From: Patagioenas fasciata
Taxonomy: Eukaryota > Chordata > Aves > Columbiformes > Columbidae
Length of the DNA stretch: 64,000 bases
Assembly (NCBI RefSeq): GCF_037038585.1
Contig: NC_092559.1
Location: forward strand, 18,834,488-18,898,487
Direction of reading: 5' to 3'
The position numbers and the translations under genes were made by a program. Below are positions 22,893 through 61,677 of this stretch, piece after piece. Positions within the stretch are counted from its first letter, which is position 1. The number at the start of each line of letters is the position of its first letter. Under the pieces are notes generated by a model that worked only from the letters and a program-made list of their open reading frames with translations, did no database searches and was not told where the DNA came from.

Positions 22893-22943
22893 ATTCTGAA
22901 CTTTGTTTGTTTGTTTGTTTGTTGGTTTTAAAAAAAAGGGGGG
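22893..22943 (+). repeat. TTTG / poly-A / poly-G junction (B1)
   Basis: A (TTTG)n tract is followed by A8 and G6. It lies exactly where RNase H is joined to the end of integrase. B2 has an AAAC-type tract with A10 and G10 at the same point (60,236-60,306). Confidence 0.8.
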
Positions 22944-23232
22944 AGTGGAGGAAACAGCACAAACCCAATTGTCAAAAGGATTGTATGTGATGAAATACTT
23001 TGCAAGTATGACCCAAAACCATGCTAAATCAGAAAGAACCTACATTAGTTATGGCCATATCACTAGTCAATGGAAAAAGCCACATCAATTGATAACCTGG
23101 GGAAAAGGTTATGTTTGTGTCATTACAGACCAAGGATTGAAGTGGATTCCCGCGAAATGGGTCAAGCCATGGCTGAATAAAGACAACAAAGATTCGATGG
23201 ATGCAGATGGACAGGAGGGAGATAAGTTGTGA
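22944..23232 (+). pseudogene. B1 integrase C-terminus
   Basis: Only the C-terminal SH3-like part is present: QWKKPHQLITWGKGYVCVIT, then WIPAKWVKPWLNKDNKD and a stop at 23,230-23,232. The corresponding end of provirus D integrase reads WEGPMSLITWGRGYACVS and WIPAKWVRPWLA. The zinc-binding and catalytic domains are deleted. This copy is the reference for the A-to-G patch described for B2. Confidence 0.9.
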
Positions 23233-23765
23233 GGACTGTTTCACATGTAAACCATGGCTCCTAATTCAGTGTTATAGATGCTCACAGACCTGGTGGTCTA
23301 GAAGCCTATTAGCAAGCAGGTGGTGTACCTTCTGTGGAGAATGGCAATTTGAACAATCAGCAGGAGAGCCAAAAGGGTGATATTACACTTAGATACTCCA
23401 TGCAAAAATGAGGTAACATTATGAGACATGCCTACAAAATCTACAAAATCAAGCAGTTATAAATGTTCTACTTTTAACATTAGGATTATGGTTGTGTTGT
23501 ATTAACTTGTTTGTTTATTCTGAATCTATTAATAAGTGCTTTAGGCAAACTAGAACAGTACATTAATAAGATTGCCATAGTAAAGTTGAGGTTTGACATA
23601 TAGCTTATAAGTTTTGGAATAAGTGGGTAGTTCTTTGATCTTAATTACATTATATGTAATTGTAATTATGTTGTTAATCACATGTTCTATGTTGCAGTGT
23701 ATTTCAAGGACGATTCAGCATGCTGTTTAATGGGCCTGACTAATTCAAGAACAAAAAGGGGGAAT
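23233..23765 (+). other. B1 post-integrase region and polypurine tract
   Basis: There is no env frame. It is AT-rich with scattered stops and is shared with B2 (60,602-61,255). It ends in the polypurine tract AAAAAGGGGGGAAT (about 23,753-23,765), directly before the 3' LTR. Confidence 0.75.
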
Positions 23766-33542: not shown

Positions 33543-34655
33543 TTAAGGGTTGTCATCACTGCAATCGGTTTCTTCTCTGTTAGCTAGCCAAGGTCTCACC
33601 CACTTTGCTGGGATCCATGAATTTTTGTGGTTACCTGTAGAAACACAAGCATATCCCCTTCCCCAGGTTATTAGTGACATAGGACCTTCCCATTGTTGTG
33701 TTGTCGGATTAAACACACTAACCTTAGGCACATTTTCGGAAAAATCTTTGACATTTTTGATATGGTGCATAACAATTGGTTCCATTTCAGTTTCACTTTT
33801 AGGATTAAGCCAGTTCAGCACATACAATGCCTTCATCAATACCTCTTCTGGGCTCACACCAATTCCCCCTTGTTTTTTCAAAACAGACAAAAGATTTTTT
33901 AATGCACGGTGTGCACGCTCAATAATTGCTTGGCCAGTAGAATTATAAGGGATTCCAAACAGGTGCTGTACCTTCCACTGGGTGAGGAAGGCTGCAAGTC
34001 TGTCAGAGTGGTATGCAGGACCATTATCTGTTTTGATTTGTGTAGGGACACCCATGACAGCAAAAGCTTGTAGTAAATGACGTTTTACTGCCTTTGCATT
34101 TGCTGAGGTCAAGGCTGTAGCCCACAGCAGTCCTGAACAGGTATCTATGGAGACATGAATGTACTTTTGTCTGCCAAATGGTGCAAATTCAGTAATATCA
34201 GTTTGCCATAACTGACCTGGCTGCAAGCCCCGAGGATTTACTCCCTTTTGTTGGAGAGGGACTATGCGGGCACAATCAGGACAAGCTGCAATAATGGCTC
34301 GAGCTTGTTCCTTTGTAATTGTAAACTGCTTTCGGAGTGCTGCTGAGGATTGATGAAAGAATTCGTGAGCTTGTCTGGCTTGTTCAAAAGGGGATATATC
34401 TGCTACTGCCACAAGTTTGTCTATGGTGCTGTTTCCTTCTACTAGACCACCTGGTATGTTAGTATGGCTTTTTATATGCATGATAAATACTGGTGCTGTC
34501 CTATAATCTAATACGTTCCACAAATCTAACAATGCTTCAAACAACAAGGAATTGGAAACTCGCTGCAAAAGTGCTCTATGTATTCTTTGTACAATTCCCA
34601 CAACATAAAGAGAATCTGTTACCAGATTAACTGGAGAGTTATGCCATTTTTGCAA
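33543..34655 (-). CDS. D RNase H end and integrase, open frame (370 codons)
   Basis: The first part is the end of RNase H (LVTDSLYVVGIVQRI and HIKSHTNIPGGLVEGN). Integrase follows with a zinc-binding H/H...C/C pattern (HEFFHQSS and ACPDCARIV), catalytic D in LWQTDITEF, D in KTDNGPAYHS, E in AIIERAHRAL, and the C-terminal WEGPMSLITWGRGY and WIPAKWVRPWL. Everything needed for a folded integrase seems present. Upstream, the frame opens across the deletion joint at about 34,655-34,665 and is in a different phase from gag. Without RT it cannot act alone. The listed Met is internal to the original polyprotein. Confidence 0.9.
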   Translation of the reverse strand: MQKWHNSPVNLVTDSLYVVGIVQRIHRALLQRVSNSLLFEALLDLWNVLDYRTAPVFIMHIKSHTNIPGGLVEGNSTIDKLVAVADISPFEQARQAHEFFHQSSAALRKQFTITKEQARAIIAACPDCARIVPLQQKGVNPRGLQPGQLWQTDITEFAPFGRQKYIHVSIDTCSGLLWATALTSANAKAVKRHLLQAFAVMGVPTQIKTDNGPAYHSDRLAAFLTQWKVQHLFGIPYNSTGQAIIERAHRALKNLLSVLKKQGGIGVSPEEVLMKALYVLNWLNPKSETEMEPIVMHHIKNVKDFSENVPKVSVFNPTTQQWEGPMSLITWGRGYACVSTGNHKNSWIPAKWVRPWLANREETDCSDDNP

Positions 34656-34660
34656 TGCTG

Positions 34661-36646
34661 CTAAGCATATTGAGGGCAGTTTCTTTTAAGATGTCCTGTC
34701 TGTCCGCAAGTAAAACATGCTAGGCCACAAGAAGGGCTTCGGCCTTTCATTGCAGGCTTAAGTGCTGCAGCCAAGGCTGCAGCGTGGGCTTGAGCATGTA
34801 TTTTTGCTTTTTCTACCTCCTGTTGCATAATCGGTACCTGTGTGCGAGCTTCCACCATCTCTGCTAAAGAAGCAGTTTTTCCCAAACCGGCTAATATCTG
34901 TTGGCATTGGGTGTTTGCATTCATCATAGCCAAATCTTTCCCCACAGCAGCTTTTGCCTCTGGAGTCAAGTTAGGAGAGGCATCTATCACTTCTTTTAAA
35001 CGATCCACAAATGTCATATATGGTTCCCCAGGATCCCACTCTATTGTAGAATAGGGTGGCACAGGGTTACCTCTATTTGGCAATTCTTTCACTGCCGCCA
35101 AGGCAAGCCCTTGCGTTTGCTGCAAAATCCTTGGATGAAGTGCTGCCTGAGTAGCACCATCCGCATATTGCCCACGACCCAGTAACTGGTCCATGCTAGC
35201 TAACCGCAACGGATCATCAGCTGGTAAACGAACATTTTCTAATACTGCCAATTCCACTTTCCCCTGCCACTTGTCCAAGAACAGCAAATACCCCGTTGGA
35301 GGAAGCAATAACTCCATCAACGCCCTAATATCTGTTTGAGTTAGTACTTGCTCCTTGAAAAATGAATTGATTAGCTGCATCACATGCTTATTATCCGTAC
35401 CATATTGCATAACTGCACTTTGCAATTGCTTAACCGTTTTCCAATCAAAAGGCGACCACTGCCTTTGTCCTCTATTATCTATGTGCACTGGCACTGCTGT
35501 AATACTACCAGGTAACATGATCCCTTCAATAGTTGCATCTCTGATTACTCCTTGCCAACGTTGCCCTGCATTATAAGAATGATCTCGAGGAATATCTCTA
35601 CCCTGATGCACAGGGGCAGCACCCAAATTATCATTATTATCACTGCTATACAATTCCCTTGTGTTTCCCTGTGGATCAGTAAGTCGGCGCATATTTGCAA
35701 ACCGATCTGCTAACCCAGTCTCCAGCCCTTTTCCATATCGCGCTCTCAAATATTCATCTGCTTCTCTTACAGACCACATCCCATCTTCAACACATTGTCT
35801 AGCCCATTTTTGTATTCGCTCCCTTTTGATACGGAGCTCCTCCGGAGTGAGGTCTAATTCCACCCCCTCCCTTTCCTGTTTTCCCCGTTTTTCACATTCC
35901 CTGCCAATTGCCTCCAGCCCGTCCTTAATTGCATCTGACGCCTTTTTATATGCTATTAACCGCGAAGTTTTACTGTTACCGCCATCTAGTCGTTTCATAG
36001 CTTCTAGAACTTCTTGTATCTGGCTCTCCTGCCGTCTCAGTAAGTCCTTCAGGCTCTGCACGTGGCTCTCCTCCTGGAACTCAGGGCGATTCTGCGGTGC
36101 TCCGTCCTGGTGTTCCATCGGGTCCTCCGGCAAAGGCACGTCGGCTGGATTAACTTGTCCTGGCTTGTTGAAACTTGCCGGTTGCTGCCATTCGTTGTCG
36201 GAGCCAGGCAATGGCTCAACGGGCGCAGAGGGTATAATTTGCTCTCCGCCCCAGAACTCCAGATCTGATACGGGACATACCAGCGGTGTTGATTCTTCGG
36301 AGTTCTCGGAGGGTGGGCAGCTCGCGGCGGGCGGCTCCGAGGGGACGGCACACAGCTCCGGCTCCTCTGAGACTTCCTGCATTAGCTGCCTGACCTCCCG
36401 CCAGGGTCCGGCGAGATCGCAAGCCTCGCGGCTCCCCCTTGTAACCGCTTCCCATAGTTCGGTCCCTATGTCCTCCCATGTACTGGGAGAAAAAAATTCG
36501 TCCGTCGAACGAACACAGCCCTTACGCTGGGCGAATAGTAAAAGGCGCTCCACCGCGTCTTTTTCCAAAATTCTTCCTGTTCTTGCAGCCAGCTGCAGAA
36601 TACTTCTCACTATTATTTTTTCTTCCACGGATGCCGTGTTTCCCAT
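34661..36646 (-). CDS. D gag, open frame (661 codons)
   Basis: It starts MGNTASVEEKIIV with a myristoylation-type Gly2, 115 bases after the primer-binding site. Matrix covers about residues 1-100, then an acidic, Pro-rich spacer, a long charged helical region, and capsid from about residue 350 (SPFDWKTVKQLQSAVMQYG). The major homology region is near residue 560 (PGEPYMTFVDRLKEVI), and one zinc knuckle is near the end (CFTCGQTGHLKRNC, CX2CX4HX4C). The frame stops at a TAG created at the deletion joint, so the second knuckle expected in this group is missing. No PPxY or PTAP late motif was seen. It is fully open and could make particles. Confidence 0.93.
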   Translation of the reverse strand: MGNTASVEEKIIVRSILQLAARTGRILEKDAVERLLLFAQRKGCVRSTDEFFSPSTWEDIGTELWEAVTRGSREACDLAGPWREVRQLMQEVSEEPELCAVPSEPPAASCPPSENSEESTPLVCPVSDLEFWGGEQIIPSAPVEPLPGSDNEWQQPASFNKPGQVNPADVPLPEDPMEHQDGAPQNRPEFQEESHVQSLKDLLRRQESQIQEVLEAMKRLDGGNSKTSRLIAYKKASDAIKDGLEAIGRECEKRGKQEREGVELDLTPEELRIKRERIQKWARQCVEDGMWSVREADEYLRARYGKGLETGLADRFANMRRLTDPQGNTRELYSSDNNDNLGAAPVHQGRDIPRDHSYNAGQRWQGVIRDATIEGIMLPGSITAVPVHIDNRGQRQWSPFDWKTVKQLQSAVMQYGTDNKHVMQLINSFFKEQVLTQTDIRALMELLLPPTGYLLFLDKWQGKVELAVLENVRLPADDPLRLASMDQLLGRGQYADGATQAALHPRILQQTQGLALAAVKELPNRGNPVPPYSTIEWDPGEPYMTFVDRLKEVIDASPNLTPEAKAAVGKDLAMMNANTQCQQILAGLGKTASLAEMVEARTQVPIMQQEVEKAKIHAQAHAAALAAALKPAMKGRSPSCGLACFTCGQTGHLKRNCPQYA

Positions 36647-36760
36647 GCCACCTGCTTCTTCGTAGGCCTACTTTCCGCTATGATTGAGCGCTGGGCTGGT
36701 GTCGCCCCCAGGTGGCGTCCTCGCGTCTTCACTTCCGGCGATCTTGCTTCGATACGAAGT

Positions 36761-54481: not shown

Positions 54482-54657
54482 GCCTTCTCCTGCTTATCTT
54501 AATGAATACCATTCTTTTTACTTAATGCCTAGTAAGTGCCTAACACCTAACATATATGAACCTTAATTTTATTAAATTATTTTATTACTAATTTCAGATT
54601 TTTGGTATCACCATCATTCATCACTGCTGGGAGAGGGACAGAGATCAGGCCAACCCC
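54482..54657. other. Host flank left of B2
   Basis: AT-rich, ending CCAACCCC. The last six bases (AACCCC, 54,652-54,657) are the left target duplication of B2. It should be HINT2 intron or 3' flank, judging from the right side of B2. The last HINT2 exon with its His triad was not found. Confidence 0.5.
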
Positions 54658-54989
54658 TGTGGAGGGGTTTCTGTTAGATGGAGATTTGTTACTGAACCAG
54701 CCAGGAATTTCAAGGGCAGCTCAAAAGTTGAGAGCAGGACCTGCTGAGAGAGGCAGCTCTACAATAACAAGGCCTCAACGTGACGTAAATCAATGGACCT
54801 ATCAGCGGTGAGACTCCAGTGCATGGACATTTCGTGAACATAGATGATATCCAATCAGTGAATGCATGATCGGAGCGTGGACGGGTGATCAGAGAATAGT
54901 TGCATATATAAGGAGGTTTGTTTCTGTAATAAATGGCTTTGCGTGATTCACATTGAATTGGAATGCTGAGTCCTTTATTCACTCCAACA
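54658..54989 (+). repeat. 5' LTR of B2 (332 bp)
   Basis: TGTGGAGGGG to CACTCCAACA. It has a TATATAAGG box near 54,906 and AATAAATGG near 54,930. It is closer to its own 3' LTR (61,256) than to the LTRs of B1. Confidence 0.93.
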
Positions 54990-58250: not shown

Positions 58251-59740
58251 AAAGGTGCAATGCAAAAATTGAGATATTGTCTTGAATTAGTGTAACTGTG
58301 ATCCATCTGCATATTTGAACTTGGTATTTGGTTTTTATATCTGAGCTCAGTATTTTAATTTGCAGATATATATATATTTAGTACCAAAATAATTTTATTT
58401 GGGGAGATAATTACAAAATGGGAACCGATTCTGCTACTCAAGTACTACCTTGCTCCCCCTTAGGATGTATCCTTACAAATTAGAGTAATTGCTTATGTTG
58501 TTACCTAATAATTTTGAGACCAGAAAAGAATTTAAGTTGTTAAACTTTGATTCGCATTGAATTTATGCATTTGTTGGAGGTATGGGAACTAAAACTAAAT
58601 GCTATGATAGATGTGAATTTGGAAGAGGTTGTATTTAAAAGTTGCTAGAATATGGACTGATTTGGATCTAGGAAAACAGAATAATGGATTTGTGTTTATT
58701 ATACTGTTTTTTGACATCTGTAAATTGTAAAAGGTAAATGGAGCTAAGTAATGTAACTATTGCTGAGCTACTCGGAATTGCATATAAAGTGTATTATGGT
58801 TGGAATGAAATGGGAAAACAAAAAAAGCAAAATATCCCAGGTCTGTGTCAAGTTGCAAGATAAACTCAGCTCATTGTAACTGAGGATTTTGCCAGGGCCT
58901 CCTACTTCGTACCAGCAATTATGCCAGCTGCGTGGCCTTGGTACATCTGAACTGCAGCAAGAAGAGAGAGAAAAAAAAAAAAAAAATTGGAAAAACCTGG
59001 CTGCCCACTTTCAAGGCGGTGAAAGGGGGGTTTTCTCTCCCCCCCACTGCAGCAATGTAATACTGAATGGAGCAGTCTGGGGGTGAAATTTAAAGGCATC
59101 CCTAGCAGATCTGTAGTTCTAATGAAACTGGGAAATTAAACCAAAAATTTGTTAATAGACTTATTCTGTGGTAACTAATTGTGAAAGACTTCTTCGTAAA
59201 TTCACCATGATAGTTTTTGAGATTGTGGGAAAGAAAGAAAGAAAGACCTTTTTTTTTTTTTTTGAGACCAATGGAATGCCAAATTTGAAACAAAGTTTTA
59301 CCATATGAATTCTTGTAGCTGCCAGAAAGCCCTGTACATCTCTTGGGTCAAGATTTGTTAAGTAAATTGTAAGTTCAAATAACATTTTCTGAGAATTCTG
59401 TTTAGTTGCATGGCCCACAAGAAGCTACTTGGATGGTGAAGATATGCTTGCTGCAAGTGAGACATGTCCAAGGAAATTTGGAATGCTGTATTTCCACTAG
59501 TATTAACAGCCAATGTTTTGATAAAGAAAACACTACACTGATAGAACTGAAACAGGACTTCAATCCGGTAAGGGAAAACAATATCCAATAAATATGACAA
59601 CCAAAATGGAATTAGAGACTTTGATGAATAAATTTCTGACAACCTTAGAAGCTAACTGCATTCGATTGGACTTGCAGATTTGTCTAAGAAACAACCTGTG
59701 GCTATTATGGGACAGTATGATGAGATTGCTAACAGACTGA
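58251..59740 (+). other. B2 middle region, part 2
   Basis: No gene. Collinear with B1 20,580-22,370 and partly with ERV-A. It contains A15 near 58,972, T15 near 59,252, and the block 59,406-59,590 shared with all three copies. Confidence 0.7.
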
Positions 59741-60235: not shown

Positions 60236-60306
60236 CTTGTTTATTTAAAAACAAACAAACAAAAAACAAACAAACAAACAAAACAAAAAAAAAAGGGGGG
60301 GGGGAG
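60236..60306 (+). repeat. AAAC-type repeat and poly-G at deletion junction (B2)
   Basis: AAAC/AAACAAA units, then A10 and G10. It is the counterpart of the TTTG/A8/G6 tract at 22,893 in B1. Confidence 0.88.
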
Positions 60307-60601
60307 GAGAAGTAGGGGAAACACCACCACAGGGCCAGTTGTCGGAGTCATTGTATGTGATGAAATAATTTGCAAGTATGACCCAAGGCCATGGTAGGTC
60401 AGAGGGAACCTACATTGGTTGTGGTCAGGTTGCTGGTCAATGGAGAGGGCCACATCGATTGAAGGCCTGGGGAGGGGGTTGTGTTTGTGGCATTGCAGGG
60501 CGGGGATCGGGGTGGATTCCTGCGAGGTGGGTCGGGCCGTGGCTGAGTGGAGATGGCAAGGATTCGGTGAATGCGAATGGACAGGAGGGAGATAAGTTGT
60601 G
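60307..60601 (+). pseudogene. B2 integrase C-terminus, A-to-G hypermutated
   Basis: It has the same frame as B1 22,944-23,232 and ends in the same GQEGDKL and stop. Residues that are Lys, Asn, Ile or Thr in B1 are Arg, Ser/Gly, Val or Ala here (WIPARWVGPWLSGD against WIPAKWVKPWLNKD). Counting by hand, about 44 of some 59 differences are A to G and only 2 are G to A. Provirus D shares the A-rich state (CTAATAACCTGGGG), so B2 is the changed copy. Confidence 0.88.
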
Positions 60602-61255
60602 AGGACTGTTTCAGATGTAGACCATGAATCCTGGTTCGGTGTTGTGGATGCTCACAGACCTGGTGATCTAGAAGCCTATTAGCAAGCTCGTGGTGTGCCT
60701 TCTGTGGAGAATGACAATTTGAACAAACAGCAGGAGAGTCAAAAAGGCAATATTACGCTTAGATAGTCAATGCACTCTTTCTCACTGATCTAGCAGCTGG
60801 TAAAACCTTAGGAGACATATCAAAGTTAAGCTATTGGTCTTTTAAATAGGTTAATCTAACTTCTGAAGTACTAACTCAATTAATAATAGATGTTGATGGT
60901 ATTGGACATGTTGCTCTACAAAATCACGCAGTTATAGGTTTTCTGCTTTTAACATCAGGATTCTGGTTGTGCTGTATTAACTTGTTTGATTATTCTGGAT
61001 CTATTAATAAGTGCTTTAGACAAAGTAGAACAGTACATTAATAAGATTGCCGTAGTAAAATTAAGGTTTGACACATAGCTTAAATGTTTTGGAATAAGTG
61101 GGTAGTTGTTTGATCTTATTAAATAAGGCTTAGTTGCATTATATGTAACTGTGATTGTTGTGTTAATCATGTGCTGTATATTGCAGTGTATTTCAAAGAT
61201 GATTCAGCGCGCTGTAAATGGGGTCTGGCTGGTTCAAGAACAAAAAGAGGGGAAT
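60602..61255 (+). other. B2 post-integrase region and polypurine tract
   Basis: No env frame. It aligns with B1 23,233-23,765 but is longer (an extra 60,770-60,905 stretch is deleted in B1). The polypurine tract is AAAAAGAGGGGAAT (61,242-61,255). Confidence 0.75.
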
Positions 61256-61591
61256 TGTGGAGGGGTTTCTGTTAGATGGAGATTTGTTACTGAACCAGCC
61301 AGGAATTTCAAGGCCAACTCAAAAGCTGAGAGCAGGACCTGCCGTGGGAGAGAAGCAGCTCTACAATAACAAGACCTCAATGTGATGTAAATCAACGGAC
61401 CTATGAGCAGTGAGACTCCAGCGTGTGGACAGCTCATGAACATAGATGATATCCAATTAGTGAATGCATGATTGGAGCGTGGACGCATGATCAGAGAATA
61501 GTTGCATATATAAGGAGGCTTGTTTCTGTAATAAATGGCTTTGCGTGATTCACGTTGAATTGGAATGCTGAGTCCTTTATTCACTCCAACA
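61256..61591 (+). repeat. 3' LTR of B2 (336 bp)
   Basis: TGTGGAGGGG to CACTCCAACA, followed by the target duplication AACCCC. TATATAAGG near 61,507, AATAAATGG near 61,530. Confidence 0.93.
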
Positions 61592-61677
61592 AACCCCCAC
61601 AGCTCTGCTCCTGCGGGACCACCAGTGAGGGTCCTATCCCACAGCATGGCAGAGTAGTGGAGGGGACACCAACTCAC

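Follow-up and report, generated by a model that had tools for sequence, protein, structure and literature searches.

ADAR-linked A-to-G hyperediting has been described in Rous-associated virus 1 (Felder et al. 1994) and avian leukosis virus (Hajjar and Linial 1995; see also PMC12925331 and PMC8586724). As far as the accessible text of these sources goes, nearly 50% of the A's were changed in avian retroviruses (PMC12925331), and ADAR sites carry an excess of A or U and a depletion of G at the 5′ neighbour (PMC8586724). APOBEC G-to-A scars in endogenous retroviruses (e.g., PMC2564838 and PMC12548423, in their accessible parts) are well established as traces of past defence. No ADAR scar in a germline endogenous retrovirus was found by a literature search that was thin on subscription journals. 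The A-to-G patch in provirus B2, which lies in a window of 64 kb (the whole stretch of DNA analysed here), shares with the editing of Rous-associated virus 1 and avian leukosis virus the clustering of sense-strand A-to-G changes and the conversion of near half of the A's. The avian examples, in the accessible descriptions, concern exogenous viruses edited in U3 and in an inverted repeat, whereas B2 is a germline provirus changed at its integrase end, where an inverted repeat was not found. Like the APOBEC scars, as described in the accessible parts of that literature, the patch would be a lasting genomic mark of enzyme attack on a retroelement, but the change is the opposite one and both the presumed enzyme and the neighbour rule are different. 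Kim et al. (1996) are also said to have reported A-to-G hypermutation in retroviral replication, which, going by the title alone, resembles B2 in being the same change. We consider it highly likely (probability of about 0.88) that the B2 patch is a fossil of ADAR-type A-to-I hyperediting of an ERVK-like sense RNA, and that it was subsequently multiplied along with the surrounding chromosome segment.

Class II (ERVK-like) proviruses have a 6-bp target-site duplication, and B2, with its LTR pair and 6-bp duplication, fits this class (Table 1). Its two LTRs differ at 23 of 334 positions (K80 0.073); assuming about 2e-9 neutral substitutions per site and year, this gives a rough age of ~18 million years. 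The family has a betaretrovirus-like pol, judging by the matches of the B1 integrase end to IN_DBD_C and solved integrases and of provirus D to Pol proteins named ERVK. The conserved-domain match of the integrase end is kept in B1 and lost in B2, with Pfam IN_DBD_C scores of 36.9 and 11.5 bits, respectively (cut-off 21), and best scores against solved retroviral integrases of 28.3 and 16.3 bits. A protein search with provirus D yielded 289 proteins; among the 120 listed, those with names were mostly from birds, with two from a sea turtle, and included ERVK-named Pol proteins of birds, which makes a bird or a near relative of birds the probable host. Provirus D (33543–36667, minus strand), a relative of B1 and B2, has kept long open frames of 668 aa (Gag-like end) and 380 aa (RNase H and integrase). 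The short B1 fragment had no match among the viral contigs or proteins searched.

Table 1 Features of provirus B2 and of its counterpart in B1, in positions of the 64-kb window.
Feature	Position	Strand	Basis or remark
5′ LTR of provirus B2	54658..54989	+	repeat pair with 3′ LTR; end set by target-site duplication
3′ LTR of provirus B2	61256..61591	+	repeat pair with 5′ LTR
Target-site duplication AACCCC, 6 bp, left	54652..54657	.	sequence
Target-site duplication AACCCC, 6 bp, right	61592..61597	.	sequence
A-rich, then G-rich tract left of patch	60246..60310	+	sequence
A-to-G patch, probably hyperedited	60330..60647	+	spans integrase C-terminal end and bases behind; 52/113 B1 A's are G
Unedited-like counterpart in provirus B1	22960..23277	+	alignment; integrase end open

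Across the 318 aligned columns of the patch, the 52 A-to-G changes from B1 to B2 were accompanied by three G-to-A and one T-to-C, and none of the 113 A's of B1 had become C or T. The original prediction, a count by eye of about 44 A-to-G, 2 G-to-A and about 15 other changes at 60,330–60,595, was closely matched by the computed 46, 2 and 14 (62 differences in 266 columns). Six additional A-to-G changes lay beyond 60,595, the last one at 60,646. The best-fitting A-to-G segment was 60,332–60,646 (~315 bases), with 2-lnL support for a start at 60,326–60,332 and an end at 60,646–60,656. Hence, the sharp bounds predicted for the patch held on the left, whereas the right edge is located at ~60,650 and not at 60,600, about 50 bases further right.

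In a scan of 4,620 aligned B1–B2 columns, in which each class of change was compared to its own maximum over 100 permutations, A-to-G reached a gain of 58.9 lnL in the patch versus a permutation maximum of 12.0. Two other classes exceeded permutation, both outside the patch: A-to-T (23.7 vs 9.7; 58,562–58,590) and, marginally, T-to-G (10.8 vs 9.4; 59,000–59,083). The gain of the remaining nine classes was never above the permutation maximum in these columns. The A-to-T stretch, where 8 of 14 A sites differ between B1 and B2, is perhaps an alignment effect. Among 714 paralogue windows with at least five transitions, taken from 46 pairs within the 64-kb window, the 12 strongest all represented the patch. 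These results confirm a clustered, strand-specific A-to-G patch in B2. Outside it, 81 of 1,265 A's (6.4%) differed by A-to-G between B1 and B2, and since this rate predicts ~7 changes among 113 A's, ordinary divergence accounts for some of the excess. Changed A's were spread over the three codon positions (17/33, 16/38 and 13/29), and seven of the ten CpGs within the B2 patch were created by A-to-G.

The direction of the changes was determined from sister copies. A 25-base anchor from the patch matched the host genome at 907 places with up to three mismatches, 100 of which were listed, including 46 off contig C47; such an anchor cannot detect copies heavily edited within the anchor itself. At a doublet that is GG in B2, these 46 places had AA in 45 cases and GA in one, and GG was not found among them. 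At the 52 changed sites, 30 of these copies from other contigs, none of them dropped, contained 1,350 A, 83 G, 59 C or T and 68 gaps, with A outnumbering G at 50 of the 52 sites. The main tally started from 65 aligned copies (these 30 and 35 more), which represent 55 distinct patch sequences and are not all independent; ten were excluded for low identity or short overlap. The resulting 55 similar copies, some of them on C47, had 2,482 A, 152 G, 32 T, 41 C and 153 gaps, and A again prevailed at 50 sites. One copy (L090) occupies the place of B1 in another array unit. Over 410 columns, B2 departed from the sister copies by 50 A-to-G changes, compared to 0–9 for each of the 55 copies; B1 departed by one A-to-G and two G-to-A. 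At the two sites of opposite polarity B1 is the changed copy, because the sister copies carry G there. Thus, A is the original state at 50 of the 52 patch sites, as settled by the sister copies, and the proposed role of B1 as the unedited state stands except for those two sites. In the copies read, the G state was neither ancestral nor present in another insertion.

For the 22 codons altered by A-to-G only, homologous proteins favoured the residue of B1 in 14 cases, that of B2 in four and neither in four; at one codon the residue of B2 occurs in 64 of 66 homologous proteins, which counts against B2 as the edited state. A first outgroup count of A:G varied with the alignment anchor: 15:2 for provirus A and 18:6 for D when anchored on B1, and 3:5 and 9:7 when anchored on B2. 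With the differing columns masked before aligning, the ratios were 15:5 (A) and 13:8 (D).

The A-to-G bias survived when five real sister copies (L047, L050, L039, L058 and L048), and not just B1, served as references: 48–54 of 110–114 A's in the patch were changed (44–47%). A's preceded by G were changed in only 1/25, 1/23, 1/25, 2/24 and 2/26 cases (Fisher p = 5.9e-7 to 1.5e-5), compared to 67–69% after A, 56–63% after T and 35–42% after C. With L047 as reference, for example, the counts were 29/43 after A, 9/16 after T, 9/26 after C and 1/25 after G (p = 1.6e-6). When B1 was the reference, 3/26 A's after G were changed (p = 4e-5), and A or T preceded 40/52 changed versus 20/61 unchanged A's (p = 4e-6). 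Outside the patch there was no 5′ G effect with any of the five references (Fisher p = 0.33–1.0 over 1,529–1,724 columns). The depletion of G 5′ of edited A's, which had been suggested as a check on ADAR, was therefore strong and limited to the patch; this neighbour order and the rate of change are the ADAR fingerprint.

A 35-base string in the edited state was found, with up to three mismatches allowed, at 84 places in the host genome, 42 per strand, which were all letter-identical and all located on C47 between 9.79 and 43.31 Mb. The 318-bp patch was also present without a single difference, in either orientation, in 30 of 30 array loci, and no sister insertion bearing the same edits was seen with the 35-base string. 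Since the identical edited strings are confined to one contig, the B2 edit is a single insertion that was amplified afterwards with its segment.

Dense A-to-I editing requires a long duplex. The original prediction placed a local duplex beside the A-rich/G-rich tract, but the folds did not bear this out: neither the self-fold of B1 RNA (z = −0.03 and 0.22) nor that of the B2 tract region (z = +1.46) was better than shuffles, so that self-folding as the editing substrate is not supported. The tract contains a 36-bp reverse-complement match to B1 at 22,902–22,937 and, by the comparison of folds with shuffles, no sign of having formed a duplex. As an inverted partner within the 64-kb window, the B1 stretch had only 88 bp with 71.6% identity on the opposite strand in D, and the B2 stretch had none. 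Since the fold of the unedited sequence does not surpass that of shuffles, the duplex was likely formed with antisense RNA. The 46 listed places off C47 include at least five pairs of family copies that lie on opposite strands within 25 kb of each other (C6, C10 twice, C16 and C17); it is only suggestive that transcripts of such inverted pairs could form duplexes. One C10 pair (L054 and L055) is identical across the patch and looks like an inverted duplication.

According to the proposed mechanism, ~315 nt of the sense retroviral RNA would have been double-stranded, most likely by pairing with antisense RNA transcribed from the same family. ADAR would have deaminated almost half of the adenosines in this duplex, sparing A's after G; reverse transcriptase would have read inosine as G, and the edited product would have integrated as provirus B2, a locus that was later amplified together with its chromosome segment. 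We infer the enzyme, its action on RNA before reverse transcription, the timing and the antisense partner. The changes would appear as A-to-G on the plus strand because the retroviral genomic RNA is sense and would be A-to-I edited there; had minus-strand cDNA been edited instead, T-to-C would be expected. The purity, polarity and 5′ neighbour preference of the changes support the predicted ADAR-type origin on the sense strand. The scarcity of G-to-A both in the B2 patch and among the departures of B1 agrees with the accompanying view that APOBEC3-type editing was not involved.

Deamination of the DNA after integration, by an ADAR acting on deoxyadenosines of a plus DNA strand hybridized to antisense RNA, with replication fixing the changes and the array spreading them, would predict no difference in strand, bounds or neighbour preference. 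According to the accessible part of PMC12925331, deoxyadenosines of DNA:RNA hybrids are edited in model substrates, but such editing is not known for retroviral hybrids. We regard this route as improbable, because it presupposes that the enzyme acts on genomic DNA, which is unproven; if the hybrids had consisted of viral RNA and minus-strand cDNA, the result would be T-to-C, which occurs only once. The transfer of a diverged segment into B2 from a G-rich relative, by conversion or recombination, fits the sharp edges of the patch and is still less probable. The edited string is limited to the 84 identical places on C47, GG is absent from the 46 places elsewhere among the 100 listed of 907, and the other kinds of difference are no more frequent inside the patch (7.1%) than outside (8.1%).

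Hardly any likelihood is left for the opposite polarity, with B2 ancestral and B1 edited from G to A by an APOBEC-type deaminase. Read backwards, G follows 29/52 changed versus 21/68 unchanged G's (p = 0.009), and the two exceptional sites and the one codon favour G as well, but this reading is refuted by the sister copies with A at 50 sites, by the near absence of departures in B1 and by the conserved integrase domain, which B1 has kept and B2 has lost. Error-prone DNA synthesis of the polymerase-eta or somatic-hypermutation kind deserves equally little credence. Its hotspots are A's preceded by A or T, which fits the preference observed with B1 as reference, but A-to-T and A-to-C would also be expected, and neither they nor more than a single T-to-C were found. 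Of 401 windows with p below 1e-5, 12 showed a G-to-A excess against L054/L055, while the remaining 389 involved B2. This excess was gone over the full length, with 42, 33, 47, 45 and 47 G-to-A versus 41, 25, 41, 43 and 35 A-to-G changes for the five references.

If the patch originated by ADAR-type hyperediting, B2 is one clean case, marked by its neighbour fingerprint, its sharp edges and the dozens of sister copies that were left unedited, and shows that ADAR scars can persist for as long as old LTRs. Such scars could be searched for systematically, which would make the formation of double-stranded RNA by retroviruses in the germline testable from DNA alone. A more far-reaching scenario, which we hold to be tentative and rather doubtful, is that the hyperediting occurred in the germ line through antisense RNA of inverted copies, and that the product was reverse-transcribed, integrated, kept and then multiplied on an ampliconic chromosome, where it now occupies at least 84 places. 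If a hyperedited genome was indeed kept and multiplied in this way, ADAR would itself be a direct source of heritable mutations in retroelements. On the 70.5-Mb contig C47, the 64-kb window forms part of a large array whose near-identical units occur in both orientations, and this region may be part of an ampliconic sex chromosome or similar.
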